Origin: Bacillota bacterium
Lineage (GTDB): Bacteria > Bacillota > UBA994
NCBI GenBank assembly: GCA_018333655.1
Contig: JAGXTJ010000002.1
Span: forward strand, 1-57,461
Direction of reading: 5' to 3'
Length of the DNA: 57,461 nucleotides
Within the stretch, counting starts at the first letter, position 1. Each line of letters begins with the position of its first letter. A program made the position numbers and the translations under genes. Shown here piece after piece: positions 22,329 to 30,581 of this stretch. The notes under the pieces are model-generated. The model was given only the letters and a program-made list of their open reading frames with translations, ran no database searches and was not told the DNA's origin.

Positions 22329-22356
22329 ATTATGCCCAAATTGCCGGCGCTGTCTA
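22329..22356 (-). promoter_or_regulatory. Candidate sigma-A promoter of murA
   Basis: On the minus strand TAGACA (22351-22356) and CATAAT (22329-22334) are each 5/6 matches to the sigma-A hexamers, with a 16-base spacer. The -35 overlaps the ywmB stop codon. This would give murA its own vegetative transcript independent of the upstream genes. Confidence 0.45.
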
Positions 22357-23097
22357 GATGGAAAGACTTAAGTTTGGTGAGGCCAACCAGATTCGCGTTT
22401 TGTTATTTCCTGGGTCAAAACGCATCATCAACGATAAATTCGTGTGCCTGCCGGCGATGTTCACGCCCGGGGGCAAGTAGCGGCTGAAGCCGACAACATT
22501 GACGCTTGTTCCATCTGTATAAAATTCTTGCGTTTCTGCATGCAGCGCAGTGAGCACTTGCCCCACAATGAGGGCGACCTCACTCGGCGTGAGCTTGCCT
22601 TTCAGCACGCCTACGAAGCAAGTTGTGACCGTAGGACGAACACCTGCCGCCAGAAAAAAAGTGCGCAGAGTTGCCTCCATTTTCGCGATGGAGTGGCTCG
22701 GCACTGTAGTCGTCATAGTTAGTACGAGGTAGGTCTCCTGCCGCCCGTTGTTCATGAGCGATTGAGAATTTGTTTCTATAGAGTAGATGTCCGTGATGAA
22801 GGTGGCGTGCGCCTGTCTGGCGCCCATGTCTTCCCAATACTTTATATCTGTCGGCACTAGCCCGAAGGCCGCTTGCGAGGCGTGGCGAAGCAGTTCTTGC
22901 AGTTGTCCCACACTCTGCTTACTAACCGGGATGCTCGCCCAGCCGTTCATGCTCACCTCGAGCAAGGTCGCCTGAGATGCGGCGAAAGCCCGTTCCAATG
23001 GACTCCATTGTGGGCCCTCGCCACCCAAACGCAGCGCCATGTTGCCCCCAAAAAACATGAGACCTACAACCATAATACCAGTTACAAATTTTCGCAT
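22354..23097 (-). CDS. ywmB: YwmB-family (DUF1779) secreted protein
   Basis: A 247-residue protein with an N-terminal hydrophobic segment (about 5-24) that is either a signal peptide or an anchor. The rest is a mixed alpha/beta domain without recognised catalytic residues, ending in a beta-rich segment (GVNIAGRHTNLSLMMRFD). Assignment rests on its place directly upstream of murA and behind the atp operon, as ywmB in Bacillus, plus the overall pattern of DUF1779. Function is unknown. SD GGGAGGGAG precedes the ATG. Confidence 0.7.
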   Translation of the reverse strand: MRKFVTGIMVVGLMFFGGNMALRLGGEGPQWSPLERAFAASQATLLEVSMNGWASIPVSKQSVGQLQELLRHASQAAFGLVPTDIKYWEDMGARQAHATFITDIYSIETNSQSLMNNGRQETYLVLTMTTTVPSHSIAKMEATLRTFFLAAGVRPTVTTCFVGVLKGKLTPSEVALIVGQVLTALHAETQEFYTDGTSVNVVGFSRYLPPGVNIAGRHTNLSLMMRFDPGNNKTRIWLASPNLSLSI

Positions 23098-23104
23098 GAA
23101 TACT

Positions 23105-23142
23105 CCCTCCCTTTGACCATGATTATTGGCCTTCTGGGAGGG
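23105..23142 (-). promoter_or_regulatory. Stem that could mask the ywmB ribosome site
   Basis: CCCTCCC (23105-23111) and GGGAGGG (23136-23142) can pair across a 24-base loop. On the transcript the 3' arm is the Shine-Dalgarno sequence of ywmB. This may simply reflect G-rich ribosome sites, or it may be a thermosensor-like or translational control element. No ligand-binding fold is evident. Confidence 0.25.
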
Positions 23143-23172: not shown

Positions 23173-23547
23173 CTAAGCGTGGCGTAGGAGAACTAGCACC
23201 ACATCACCCGTAAAATCTGGCGAGCTAACCACGGAGAACTGTACGCCGCGTTTTACAGCAGCTTGCACATAGGCCATGGCACGACTTAGGTAGTCGGAGC
23301 GAACTAGTAGTTTCTCAATTTGCCGAGGGTCAAGTAAGGCGCTGAAGTCAGCACTTACCACATTGGTCTCTAGCTGTGGCAGCGTTAAGACCCAAGCCAC
23401 CCGCTCTAAGAGCTGGCCTAAATGGGCATTGCGCTCTTTACGTCTGAAAACCGGAGTAGCGCCGTGGCCCTCTCGTAGCAGGGTGCGCTTCAGTTCACAA
23501 CGCCGTCCATACTTCGAGAGAGCCTCGCGCTCAATTTTATCGCTCAC
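23173..23547 (-). CDS. YueI-like (DUF1694) protein
   Basis: A 124-residue cytosolic protein that overlaps atpC by 4 bases and so is translated from the end of the atp operon. The pattern fits DUF1694/YueI: an N-terminal basic part with GATPVFRRKERNAHLG, then LLERVAWVLTLPQL, and a C-terminal QFSVVSSPDFTGDVVLVL. The match is from memory of the family pattern, and an unrelated fold is possible. Function is unknown. Confidence 0.55.
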   Translation of the reverse strand: MSDKIEREALSKYGRRCELKRTLLREGHGATPVFRRKERNAHLGQLLERVAWVLTLPQLETNVVSADFSALLDPRQIEKLLVRSDYLSRAMAYVQAAVKRGVQFSVVSSPDFTGDVVLVLLRHA

Positions 23548-23953
23548 TCGTCTCTGTCAACCGCTCTTATACGGGCTATGGCTTTACGCAAGGCCATTTC
23601 ATTGCGCACAAAGTCGATCTCGGGGTTGCCCTTCTGTGCCAAGCGCTCCTCGGCGCGTGTCTTGGCGCGGCGAGCGCGCTCCACATCAATTTCGCTAGAG
23701 AGCTCTGCCGTTTCAGCGAGAATAATAACCTTGTGATCGGCGCCGACTTCCAGAAAACCTGCGCTCAGGGCTATTCTTTGCTCACCCTGCTCGTCTTTGA
23801 TGCGCAATACGCCTGGTACGATTACGGTGACAAGGGGGATGTGCCCAGGTAAGATACCAATTTCGCCGTCGAGGGCGCGTACACTGACCATGGTGCACTC
23901 CCGGCTCACCACTTTGCGCTCCGGGGTCACTACCTCCACCCACATCGTACCCA

Positions 23954-23954
<1 letters not shown>
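23544..23954 (-). CDS. atpC: ATP synthase epsilon subunit
   Basis: Central-stalk subunit of F1, 136 residues: N-terminal beta sandwich (WVEVVTPERKVVSRE, DGEIGILPGHIPLVT) followed by a C-terminal helical pair (ERARRAKTRAEERL). Regulates ATP hydrolysis. Its start overlaps the atpD stop by one base and its end overlaps the YueI-like gene by four. Confidence 0.96.
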
Positions 23955-25387
<1,433 letters not shown>

Positions 25388-26245
25388 TTACTTGAGCGCT
25401 TCTGCACCGGCTACCAGCTCCGAGATTTCCCGGGTAATACTGGCTTGCCGTGCACGGTTGTATTTAAGGGTTAATCTCTTTATCATGTCGTCCGCATTAT
25501 TAGTAGCCGCATCCATGGCTGTCATGCGAGCGCCATGCTCACCGGCTTTCGCCTCGAGCAGTGTGCGATAGATCAGGGTATTGATATGGCGCGGGAGCAG
25601 ATGCTCGAGCACCTCATCTGAACTCGGCTCAAAAAGGTACTCTGCCTCAACCTTTTCCCTTGGCGAACGAGAACCCACTACCGGTAGAATCTGCAGGGCC
25701 TCCTGCCGCTGTACTAAGGGATTGATAAAGTGGGGGTATACTAACCAGACTTCGTCGACGAGGTTGGCAAGGTAGAGGTCGCGCACCGTCTCGCCTATGC
25801 CCTGGGCTTGCTTAAAGGAAATGTTATCGCCAAGCCCCGTAAAGTCGCCCACTAGAGGATACTTGCGCCTCTTAAAGTAATCGCGTCCCTTGCGTCCCAC
25901 GGCAAAGATCATCGGTAGCTCGTCGCCATTCTCCTGCATTACCTTCACGGCTTTGCGAATAAGGTTGGCGTTAAAGCCACTGCACAAGCCCCGGTCTGCC
26001 GTCACCACCAAGTAGGCGCGACGCTTTCCTTCTCGTTTAACTAAGAATGGATGCAGGTTTTCATCTGTTCGCGCTGCGACACGGCGCAGCACCTCCTGCA
26101 TGGCGAGCGCGTAGGGGCGAGCTGAGATAAGAGCAGATTGGGCCCGGCGGAGCTTAGCAGCCGAGACCATCTTCATGGCACGTGTTATCTGTTGCGTGTT
26201 TTTTACGCTACGAATTCTGCGGCGAATATCGCGCAAGGTGGCCAC
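25388..26245 (-). CDS. atpG: ATP synthase gamma subunit
   Basis: Rotor shaft of F1, 285 residues. Long N- and C-terminal helices form the coiled coil: RDIRRRIRSVKNTQQITRAMKMV at the start and NNADDMIKRLTLKYNRARQ at the end, the latter with the conserved RARQASITREI. Length is typical. Confidence 0.98.
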   Translation of the reverse strand: MATLRDIRRRIRSVKNTQQITRAMKMVSAAKLRRAQSALISARPYALAMQEVLRRVAARTDENLHPFLVKREGKRRAYLVVTADRGLCSGFNANLIRKAVKVMQENGDELPMIFAVGRKGRDYFKRRKYPLVGDFTGLGDNISFKQAQGIGETVRDLYLANLVDEVWLVYPHFINPLVQRQEALQILPVVGSRSPREKVEAEYLFEPSSDEVLEHLLPRHINTLIYRTLLEAKAGEHGARMTAMDAATNNADDMIKRLTLKYNRARQASITREISELVAGAEALK

Positions 26246-26262
26246 TATACCTCACCCCCTCT

Positions 26263-27768
26263 TTAAGAAAACAAGCGCTTAAACTCGGCTATGGCCTCAT
26301 CGAGAGCTTTGCTGGTCTCTGGGCTGAGGGCTTTTTCTTCTCTAATAGTAGAGAGAATGCGGCTATGCTTGTCTCGCATGACACGCAAAAATTCCCCTGC
26401 AAAACCAACTACTCGCTTAACTTCAACACTGTCTAAATGTCCGTGCACGCCGAGGTAGATGCTAACCACCTGCTCTTCGATAGGCATGGGGACATTTTCT
26501 CCCTGCTTGAGGAGCTCCGTAAAGCGCTCCCCGCGTGCCAAACGCGCCTGGGTGGCCCTGTCTAGCTCTGAACCGAACTGCGCAAAGGCCGCCAGCTCAC
26601 GATACTGCGCCAGTTCAAGGCGGAGTCGCCCCGCTACTTGGCGCATGGCCTTAATCTGAGCCTTGCTACCCACGCGGGAGACAGATAGGCCTACGTTGAC
26701 CGCAGGACGAATACCAGAGTAAAACAGGTCGCTTTCCAAGAAAATCTGCCCATCAGTGATAGAAATGACGTTCGTGGGAATGTAGGCTGAAACGTCGCCT
26801 GCCTGTGTCTCGATAATGGGGAGAGCGGTAAGGCTTCCGCCGCCATACTCTTTCGATAGACACGCAGCGCGCTCCAGAAGACGAGAGTGCAAGTAGAAGA
26901 CATCCCCAGGGTAGGCTTCGCGGCCGGGCGGGCGCCTAATCAGGAGCGACATGGCGCGATAGGCAACGGCATGCTTGGAAAGATCATCGTATATCACGCA
27001 GACATCGCGACCCTCATGCATAAAGTATTCACCCATGGCGCAACCAGCGTAAGGCGCCAAGAACTGCAGGGTAGCGCTGTCTGCAGCGGTAGAAGATACT
27101 ACGATGGTGTAGGAGAGTGCACCATGGCTTTCTAGCGTGCGCACAATTCGCGACACTGTCGACGCTTTTTGGCCAATGGCCACATAGATGCAGATAACTC
27201 CCTGCCCTTTTTGGTTGATGATGGTGTCTACGGCGATGGCGGTCTTACCTGTGCCGCGGTCGCCAATAATTAGTTCGCGCTGGCCACGTCCAATAGGGAT
27301 CATCGAGTCAATGGACTTAAGCCCAGTCTGCAGCGGTGTATCTACTGGTCTGCGCTCGATAACACCAGGCGCGATAATTTCCACCGGGCGATACTTGTCT
27401 GTTACGATGGGGCCGTTGCCATCGAGGGGCTGGCCTAGGGGGCTGACGACTCGTCCAAGCAGTGCTTCCCCGACAGGTACCGAGGCAATGCGCCCCGTGC
27501 GCTTTACCGTGTCGCCTTCTTTGATGCCCACGTCAGAGCCAAAAATGGCCACCGCCACATTGTCTTCCTCAAGATTGAGTACCGCACCAAAAACGGCACC
27601 CGGAAACTCCACGAGTTCACTCGCCATGACATTGTCTAGCCCGTAAACACGAGCAATACCGTCACTAACGGTTAGGACGGTGCCGACCTCGGCCACTTCG
27701 ATTTGCGACCGGTAATTTTCTATTTCCCGCCGCAGAATAGAGCTAATTTCTTCTGGCTTAAGGCGCAA
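26263..27768 (-). CDS. atpA: ATP synthase alpha subunit
   Basis: Non-catalytic nucleotide-binding F1 subunit, 501 residues: P-loop [28 protein letters not shown], and the catalytic-site Arg in [17 protein letters not shown]. It overlaps atpH by 11 bases. Confidence 0.99.
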
Positions 27769-28321
27769 TATCTTTCACCTCTGCAATCCTGACTTCTACT
27801 TGTGAAAGCTGATTTTTTAGGGCCTTGAGTCGTGCCATAACGCTGCCATCGTAGACTACATTGCCCACCCGTACAGTGACCCCGCCTAAGAGCCTAGGCT
27901 CTATACGAAGGTCAAGCACTACTCTCTCTGGCTCCCCGAGTTTATGCTTAAGACTTTGGATTTCATCATTCGTCAGGGGGGTGGCACTATGCACCACAGC
28001 GTGGAGCTCGCCCCTATCTCTTTGCGACAGTTTCGTGAAGGCTACGACGATGCTATCAAGCTCTGACTCGCGCCCCTTGTCGATAAGTAATTTGAGAAAG
28101 TCGACCGCGGCGACTTGGTAGCCGACAGAGAGCTTGTCCACGATGGCTTTACGTCTCTTTTTCTCCACGCGGGGGTGCGAAAAAAGAAGACTCGCGGCTT
28201 TGTCTTTGACGAGAGTTGAGAAGGCGAAAAGATCCTCGTGCACTTCATCGACAATGCTTTGCTCTTTGGCCACAGCAAAGAGGGCCAGAGCATAGCGCAT
28301 GGCCAGAATTTCGCCGGCCAT
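27758..28321 (-). CDS. atpH: ATP synthase delta subunit
   Basis: Peripheral-stalk cap linking F1 to subunit b, 187 residues. N-terminal helical bundle ([15 protein letters not shown]) and C-terminal [20 protein letters not shown] are characteristic. Overlaps atpF by one base. Confidence 0.96.
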
Positions 28322-28809
28322 TACTGCCTGCCCATCCCTTCAAGGGTGTCGGAGATGAGTTGGCGATGTGTGGCAGGGTTGATCTCCCGCCCGATGACCA
28401 TGGCCGCCGAACTGATGGTCAACTCTAAGACATGCTCCTTGAGCATGGCCATGGCCTTGCCCACTTCATGTTGCACCTCAGATTGCGCGCGCTCTACAAT
28501 GCGTGCGCTTTCCTTCCGCGCCTCGGCAACTAGTTCATCCTTAATTTTTTGGCCATGTTTGGTGGCCTCTTCTATAATGCGCTGGCTGGTCTCCCTCGCC
28601 TGCGCAATCTCGCTTTCAAAGGTTTGACGCATACTCTCGGCTTCTTCCCGAGCGAGAGCGGCCTCATTCAATGCCCTTTCAATGCCCGCTGACCTTTCCG
28701 CCATGACCTTGCGCACCGGCTTGTACAAGAAATAGGTGAGCAAACCCATGAGCACGAAAAAGTTCAGGAGCATCTGGACCATGTACAACGGGTTCAGCAT
28801 CCCGACCAC
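28321..28809 (-). CDS. atpF: ATP synthase b subunit
   Basis: Peripheral-stalk subunit, 162 residues: one N-terminal membrane helix (about 9-30), then a long charged amphipathic coiled coil (EEAESMRQTFESEIAQARE) to the C-terminus. Follows atpE with a structured 75-base gap. Confidence 0.96.
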   Translation of the reverse strand: MVGMLNPLYMVQMLLNFFVLMGLLTYFLYKPVRKVMAERSAGIERALNEAALAREEAESMRQTFESEIAQARETSQRIIEEATKHGQKIKDELVAEARKESARIVERAQSEVQHEVGKAMAMLKEHVLELTISSAAMVIGREINPATHRQLISDTLEGMGRQ

Positions 28810-28839
28810 TCCTTTTTAGGTAGAACAAGCGCCAAGAAG

Positions 28840-28861
28840 GGAATGGGCCTTGGCCCATTCC
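28840..28861. repeat. Perfect 22-base palindrome between atpE and atpF
   Basis: GGAATGGGCC (28840-28849) and GGCCCATTCC (28852-28861) are exact reverse complements with two bases between. On the transcript they form a strong stem directly after the c-subunit gene, without a U-tract. This fits an mRNA processing or protection element supporting the high stoichiometry of subunit c. Confidence 0.6.
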
Positions 28862-28884
28862 ACTTCCTGACCCAGGTACATATA

Positions 28885-29187
<303 letters not shown>

Positions 29188-29202
29188 TCAAAGTGAGCGA
29201 AA

Positions 29203-29868
29203 TTACTCCGCTTGGACTTGTATATAGGCAACTGCTAGCAAGGTAAAGACTAGCGATTGCACCACACCCACAAAGACTCCGAACCACAAATTAAGAATTC
29301 CGGGCATGACCCAGGGCACCAACTGATAAAACACAAAAGTCATTACTAAGCCACCAAACATATTGCCATAGAGGCGAAAACCATGCGACAAGACCTTGCC
29401 GAGCTCGCCAATGATATTCATCGGCAACATAATTGGGTAAGGCTCAATGTAGGCCTTTAAGTAGGCCCCCAAGCCTTTGCGATGGATGGCCGTACCATGG
29501 GCCACCAGAAACACGAACGTCGCTAGGCCTAAGGTTGTGTCTAAGCGCGTAGTGGGGCTAGTCACAAAGGGTATGAGTCCAGACAAATTGAGTGTCAGGG
29601 TGAAGATGCCGATGGTCGCAATGAGCGGAATATAGGATACACCTGACTTACCCATCATGTCTATGACCATAGACTCAAAAAAGGACATCATCATTTCGGC
29701 CACATTTTGCGCCCCGCGCGGCACAGCCTGTAGCCTACGCGTGGCCATGTAGGCAAAGAGCACTATAAAGGCCATGACCACCCAAGAGACGACCACAAAA
29801 TCTGGCACGGGAACGCCAAAGATACGAAAAATTATTGCTGATTCGACTTCTAACATCTTCTCCACCAC
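29203..29868 (-). CDS. atpB: ATP synthase a subunit
   Basis: Membrane stator, 221 residues, 5-6 helices. The essential Arg is in SHGFRLYGNMFGGLVM, and the C-terminal helix ends in FTLLAVAYIQVQAE. Forms the ion half-channels against the c ring. Lies 7 bases behind atpI. Confidence 0.97.
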   Translation of the reverse strand: MVEKMLEVESAIIFRIFGVPVPDFVVVSWVVMAFIVLFAYMATRRLQAVPRGAQNVAEMMMSFFESMVIDMMGKSGVSYIPLIATIGIFTLTLNLSGLIPFVTSPTTRLDTTLGLATFVFLVAHGTAIHRKGLGAYLKAYIEPYPIMLPMNIIGELGKVLSHGFRLYGNMFGGLVMTFVFYQLVPWVMPGILNLWFGVFVGVVQSLVFTLLAVAYIQVQAE

Positions 29869-29874
29869 ACCCCA

Positions 29875-30252
29875 TCATTTGTGTCTGCGATTAAGGACGT
29901 GCACAAGTTCCCCAAGATAAATGGCCATCTTAATGGTAAGGACCCCGATAACGGTGGCCGCAAAATTGAACCAAGGATTAAAGAATGGTACAACCATTAC
30001 GGCGGCAATAAAGAACATGCGTTTAGCAAAAGCGCGCCGAGCGATACGGGTGGCGACGAGAGGGTTCTTGTGTCGTGTAAGGGAGTGGACATCAAGCACC
30101 AAGAGGCGCAGGTAAACAATCGCGCCCACACCGCCAAGGAGCAAACCTAGCGAGGCCTGCCAGGCGAAAAGGAGCGAGGCCGCACTAAGTGCGAGAACAA
30201 TGAAAATAATGCGCCCCCGCAATTCGCGTTCGAGCTGTAAGGGGTCATTCAT
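29875..30252 (-). CDS. atpI: ATP synthase subunit I (AtpI)
   Basis: Small membrane protein (125 residues, four hydrophobic segments) that helps assemble the c ring and is linked with AtpZ to Mg2+/Ca2+ supply in alkaliphilic bacilli. Start chosen: ATG at 30252 (NDPLQLEREL). In-frame ATG/GTG codons 9-12 bases earlier are alternatives; the far upstream start would overlap most of the atpZ tail. Overlaps the atpZ reading frame by 8 bases. Confidence 0.85.
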   Translation of the reverse strand: MNDPLQLERELRGRIIFIVLALSAASLLFAWQASLGLLLGGVGAIVYLRLLVLDVHSLTRHKNPLVATRIARRAFAKRMFFIAAVMVVPFFNPWFNFAATVIGVLTIKMAIYLGELVHVLNRRHK

Positions 30253-30478
30253 TGTGCTCACCATTCCTCTCGCGAAAGAACCCCTCGATGGTGTTATAGA
30301 CACTCCACAAGGCGCCTCCTATACCAGCTACGGTCCCTAGCAAAGTGAATACTACTCCCGTAGTTAGCTACTTGTCAAGCCACAGGCCAATATAGGCCCC
30401 TACGGCCACCGCCACAACTACATTTAACCCAATCTGCGTGAGGAGCGACAACAGCTCATACCCGGAGCGCAGGCGCAT
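30245..30478 (-). pseudogene. atpZ: atpZ interrupted by an in-frame TAG codon
   Basis: Reading from the ATG at 30478, the frame encodes a typical AtpZ: RSGYELLSLLTQIGLN, first membrane helix, then GLWLDK, an amber codon at 30370-30368, then LTTGVVFTLLGTVAGIGGA, the second helix, and a stop TGA at 30247-30245. Both halves fit the family, in which a residue follows LDK and a LGTxPxFTLxG segment begins the second helix. One TGG-to-TAG change would explain it. It may be a recent nonsense mutation, a sequencing error, or read-through. The ribosome site before the ATG is poor; a GTG at 30508 is also in frame. Confidence 0.75.
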
Positions 30479-30581
30479 ACTACACCGAAACGTGTATACA
30501 ATATGCACTCGTGTTATGATTTCCACGAGAATTTTGCGTCTCCTGCAAAGTGAAAAAGTTAACTTGATATTCTTTCATCTT

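Follow-up and report, generated by a model that had tools for sequence, protein, structure and literature searches.

According to PMC4453477, AtpZ of Bacillus pseudofirmus OF4 is an accessory protein tied to Mg2+ acquisition (work cited therein), and Bacillus subtilis is without atpZ. UAG is generally the rarest stop codon in bacteria (reviewed in PMC4989110). In-frame stops under purifying selection are reported to be widespread among bacteria, with conservation as the criterion by which they are recognized (PMC7918605), and ATPase operons have been exchanged horizontally elsewhere, for example in Thaumarchaeota (PMC6863869). For ATP synthase operons, a literature search on read-through found nothing relevant. 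Here, we analyze an atpZ gene that is interrupted by one amber codon. The gene lies in a 57,461-nucleotide stretch of DNA (the window) from the draft genome of a Bacillota bacterium (G000; 57 contigs, 96.8% complete).

The interrupted atpZ gene and its relatives

The atpZ frame occupies positions 30478-30245 of the minus strand, from ATG 30478 to a TGA at 30247-30245. Its translation (window 30245-30478, minus strand) consists of MRLRSGYELLSLLTQIGLNVVVAVAVGAYIGLWLDK, a stop, LTTGVVFTLLGTVAGIGGALWSVYNTIEGFFRERNGEHNE and the final stop; the sole internal stop is the TAG at 30370-30368. The first half (30371..30478, minus strand) encodes 36 amino acids comprising the first transmembrane helix and matches positions 1-27 of PF09527 (ATPase_gene1/AtpZ). 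An alternative start at GTG 30526 would add 16 residues, for an N-terminal half of 52 amino acids. The second half (30245..30367, minus strand) encodes the second transmembrane helix, matches positions 31-53 and ends in the TGA that overlaps atpI. The profile match crosses the amber codon, covering positions 1-53 of 54 with one TAG inside (54.7 bits, E 2.6e-14), and is not due to chance. When scored separately, the N-terminal half yields 33.0 bits, the C-terminal half 16.8 bits and the joined read-through 56.0 bits; the read-through and the first half alone pass the curated cut-off (26.6 bits). An uninterrupted frame with both membrane helices is lacking, which makes this gene a broken or split member of the family, and no other PF09527 match was found in a profile search of the genome. 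Frame and profile match thus agree with the first-pass annotation, which had described two AtpZ halves in a single frame, parted only by TAG, the first ending after the first helix.

Position also identifies the gene as atpZ: it is the first gene of an atp operon and adjoins atpI, which is followed by atpBEFHAGDC. The atpI gene (29875..30252, minus strand; PF03899, 34.0 bits) is intact, and its ATG at 30252 overlaps the end of atpZ (ATGAATGA). On its 3' side, atpB, E, F, H, A, G, D and C (23544..29868, minus strand) are open frames of the usual lengths, identified as intact F-type ATP synthase genes from their ORFs, from matches to PF00119 and PF00137, and from orthologues arranged in the same order in seven genomes (G004, G009, G011, G008, G010, G012 and G014). 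In sequence, the c subunit (window 28885-29172) most resembles c1 of PDB 4bem and the sodium-specific c rings 1yce/2wgm, and its P, Q and EST residues match the aligned residues of 4bem c1 and 1yce/2wgm. Judging from this similarity, the ATP synthase is probably Na+-coupled.

Of the 46 atpZ matches found within the phylum (44 genomes), a single one, that of G000, carries an internal stop. A search of 398 genomes revealed no other among the best-scoring matches listed, and a search of IMG/VR returned no further copy of the locus. Conservation of the amber codon, which according to the first-pass annotation would have made this a recoding event, is therefore absent from the orthologues listed: the inactivating change is present here and the relatives are intact. 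The nearest intact atpZ, in G004 (same family, contig WSXW01000040.1), has Lys at the amber column. In an alignment with 29 other AtpZ sequences, counted by eye, this column holds Lys in 9, Arg in 8 and Trp in 3, the remainder being Tyr, Val, Leu, Ile, Thr, Phe and Asn. This bears out the earlier statement that family members carry an ordinary residue there and, since the column is variable, nothing points to a special one. The suggestion that the codon is one base away from TGG fares less well: Trp does occur in 3 of the 29, but a TGG origin is not specially favored because the column varies and is mostly Lys or Arg. AtpZ itself is undetectable in 4 of 46 genomes that have AtpB.

Reading of UAG in the genome

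Stop codon usage was determined in about 424 kb, made up of the 57-kb window and 20 further stretches (L103-L122, approximately 366 kb), by counting the ends of the longest non-overlapping open frames of at least 100 amino acids rather than of curated genes. Far from being rare as a terminator, TAG is the commonest, ending 152 of 369 such frames (41%; 153 in another count), as compared to 125 for TAA and 92 for TGA. Its share is 39% in frames of at least 300 amino acids, which is not significantly above one third (p 0.12). TAG is also frequent in the sampled stretches of relatives. Release factor RF1 is encoded in G000 (513.7 bits). The dominance of TAG among stops, together with the presence of RF1, rules out a genome-wide reassignment.

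The first-pass annotation had also proposed that recoding might be recognized from a suppressor or from additional genes with in-frame TAG codons. No PylRS was found in the G000 assembly; the two weak matches (26 bits, the cut-off being 178) are of a kind that the same search returned in 13 of 14 control genomes, only one of which had a match above the cut-off. Likewise, none of the 49 tRNA genes in the draft, all typed by anticodon, has a CUA anticodon. The lack of both PylRS and an amber-decoding tRNA largely rules out pyrrolysine or a suppressor tRNA within this assembly. The tRNA set is without tRNA-Ile(GAU) and tRNA-Ala(UGC), probably gone with unassembled rRNA operons, so that a missing tRNA is conceivable. 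Conceptual read-through of 30 TAG-ended genes with long in-frame extensions in the 424-kb sample yielded no Pfam domain spanning the stop, leaving atpZ as the sole TAG-interrupted gene in that sample. None of 20 control junctions at TAA or TGA was accepted as a split gene. One junction, L112:9878, showed a weak, below-cut-off Suc_Fer-like match and was judged to lie between two adjacent ferredoxin-type genes. All tests agree that UAG means stop in G000 and provide no evidence for a sense reading.

ATPase operons in the slot next to wecB

Comparison of the segment between window positions 23105 and 30565 with corresponding stretches from related genomes (L135, L136, L137, L138, L139, L140 and L176-L183) uncovered an exchange of ATPase operons at this site. 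The F-type subunit a is missing in two genomes of the same genus (G001 and G002) and in four of the sister genus (G003, G005, G006 and G007). In these six, the slot after wecB is occupied by a V/A-type ATPase operon with genes I, K, E, C, A and B, as assigned from Pfam matches. Where the stretch is long enough, this operon is followed by a ywmB-like gene (G001, G002, G005 and G007) and, beyond it, by murA as well (G001, G002 and G005). G000 and G004 carry the F-type operon (atpZ to atpC plus a DUF1694 gene), and neither has a V/A-type A subunit, the best match (about 32% identity) being to F1-type subunits. As the F-type operon also lies between wecB and murA in the outgroup families (G008, G009, G010, G011 and G014), the F-type operon is the ancestral occupant of this site.

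A tree of flanking genes groups G000 with G001 and G002 at 100% support; the node that places G004 with respect to the V-type genus is weak (9.3/50). Either two replacements, or one replacement followed by a reversal in G000, would be compatible with this weak node. The left edge of the swapped segment lies in the operon leader (30493..30565, minus strand), which is shared with the V/A-type genomes of the same genus: positions 30542-30565 (AAGTTAACTTTTTCACTTTGCAGG) are identical in those genomes, and positions 30493-30506 (GCATATTGTATACA) are identical or nearly so. The right edge (23105..23129, minus strand; CCAATAATCATGGTCAAAGGGAGGG), upstream of the ywmB-like gene, is identical in G002. Since leader and right edge are common to G000, with its F-type operon, and to G002, with its V/A-type operon, the operon was replaced in situ, edge to edge, within this family, and the segment that can be exchanged begins, as far as genes are concerned, with atpZ. 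A tie between the exchange and the amber codon is speculation. Beside the swapped segment, the ywmB-like gene (PF08680; window 22354-23097, adjoining murA) shows 54% identity to its same-genus orthologues, as against 89% for murA, and is thus diverging fast.

Origin of the amber codon and comparison with known systems

The best-supported explanation is the one that the first-pass annotation had placed first, a recent nonsense mutation. The stop is single, TAG terminates genome-wide, a suppressor was not found, the relatives are intact and the other genes of the operon are open. It is thus probable that G000 atpZ recently gained a nonsense codon, the gene being accessory and dispensable, with the rest of the operon intact. 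The mutation would then be real in the organism. With RF1 present, ribosomes would stop at the UAG, and the product would be a peptide of 36-52 residues with only the first of the two AtpZ helices, so that AtpZ function would most likely be lost or greatly reduced. Such a loss is tolerable because AtpZ is accessory and missing from some ATP synthase operons. Production of ATP synthase should continue, since atpI starts from a codon of its own and the downstream genes are intact; atpI, which overlaps atpZ, may experience a mild polar effect.

The sequence 3' of the amber codon bears on the age of the mutation. Neither another stop nor a frameshift occurs in the second half of atpZ, which differs from that of G004 by 0.31, 0.41 and 0.85 at codon positions 1, 2 and 3, respectively. 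This excess of third-position changes is the pattern of a gene whose coding sequence was constrained during most of the time since G000 and G004 diverged. Thus, either the stop arose recently by this measure or the frame continues to be used in some way. An open second half with the family pattern would fit the latter case too, the gene being expressed via leakage or re-initiation.

An error in the draft genome is an unlikely source of the stop. The gene would then be intact in the organism, one base having been miscalled or a rare variant having entered the consensus. That the assembly is a draft in 57 contigs is in line with this idea, as is the fact that one substitution is the sole defect in an otherwise intact gene and operon. 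Against it, the nearby sequence is not poor, all the other operon genes are open, and the lack of a second TAG-split Pfam domain at the 30 junctions in about 424 kb implies that stop-making errors are not frequent here.

Distinctly unlikely as well is a tolerated split or leaky atpZ gene, in which the first helix would be translated as far as the UAG, the second helix would be made through re-initiation or near-cognate read-through and function would persist at a reduced dose. A possible re-initiation codon in the atpZ frame, TTG (30341..30343, minus strand), is preceded by GGGAG some 11 nt upstream and could restart translation to give a second helix of 32 amino acids. TTG begins the longest frames of atpA, atpE, wecB and upp, in and near the operon; the second half is undegraded, and selected in-frame stops are reported to be widespread in bacteria, as mentioned above. 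But a helix started at TTG 30343 would miss its first residues, and the stop is conserved in no relative found, failing the very property by which such stops are recognized (PMC7918605). Nor did the search for features of leaky stops yield a candidate: the RNA downstream of the amber codon has no unusual, potentially stimulatory structure (z -0.57), and the CTA directly 3' of it also follows 5 of the 152 terminal TAGs, which argues against a context kept for leaky sites. An extended version seems to us highly improbable: here the amber codon would divide AtpZ into two single-helix peptides, each translated on its own (the second starting at TTG 30343) and both still assembling, in a lineage whose ATPase operon is exchangeable. 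Programmed recoding through pyrrolysine or a dedicated suppressor tRNA is scarcely credible, as nothing speaks for it but the occurrence of an in-frame TAG in a conserved family, against no PylRS, no CUA anticodon, TAG as the commonest terminator, no second case, no conservation and a variable residue column.

Being most likely an ordinary recent nonsense mutation, the amber codon matters little in itself, and a possible lead to recoding in an energy operon is closed. The alternation of F-type and V/A-type operons in one slot, on the other hand, provides a natural setting in which to study how cells live through the swapping of their central energy enzyme, and whether atpZ and other accessory genes decay in the vicinity of ATPase exchanges.

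Like pyrrolysine or other amber-recoded genes, G000 atpZ has an in-frame TAG in a conserved family; unlike them, it occurs in a genome where TAG is an ordinary stop and neither PylRS nor a CUA tRNA was found, and its codon is not conserved and falls in a variable column. The resemblance to recent bacterial pseudogenes and nonsense polymorphisms is close (one stop in one genome, intact relatives, no more decay), and nothing distinctive was found to set this gene apart from them. With AtpZ of the Bacillus pseudofirmus OF4 type it shares its place as first gene of the atp operon, the overlap with atpI, two membrane helices and a GxxxGxxLD-type motif, but it is broken by one TAG between the helices. 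Finally, the operon exchange parallels the horizontal replacement described in Thaumarchaeota (PMC6863869) in that an operon of the other type stands for the ancestral one in close relatives; it differs in that F-type and V/A-type operons alternate here in one chromosomal slot of a single bacterial genus, preceded by a leader that is shared in part.
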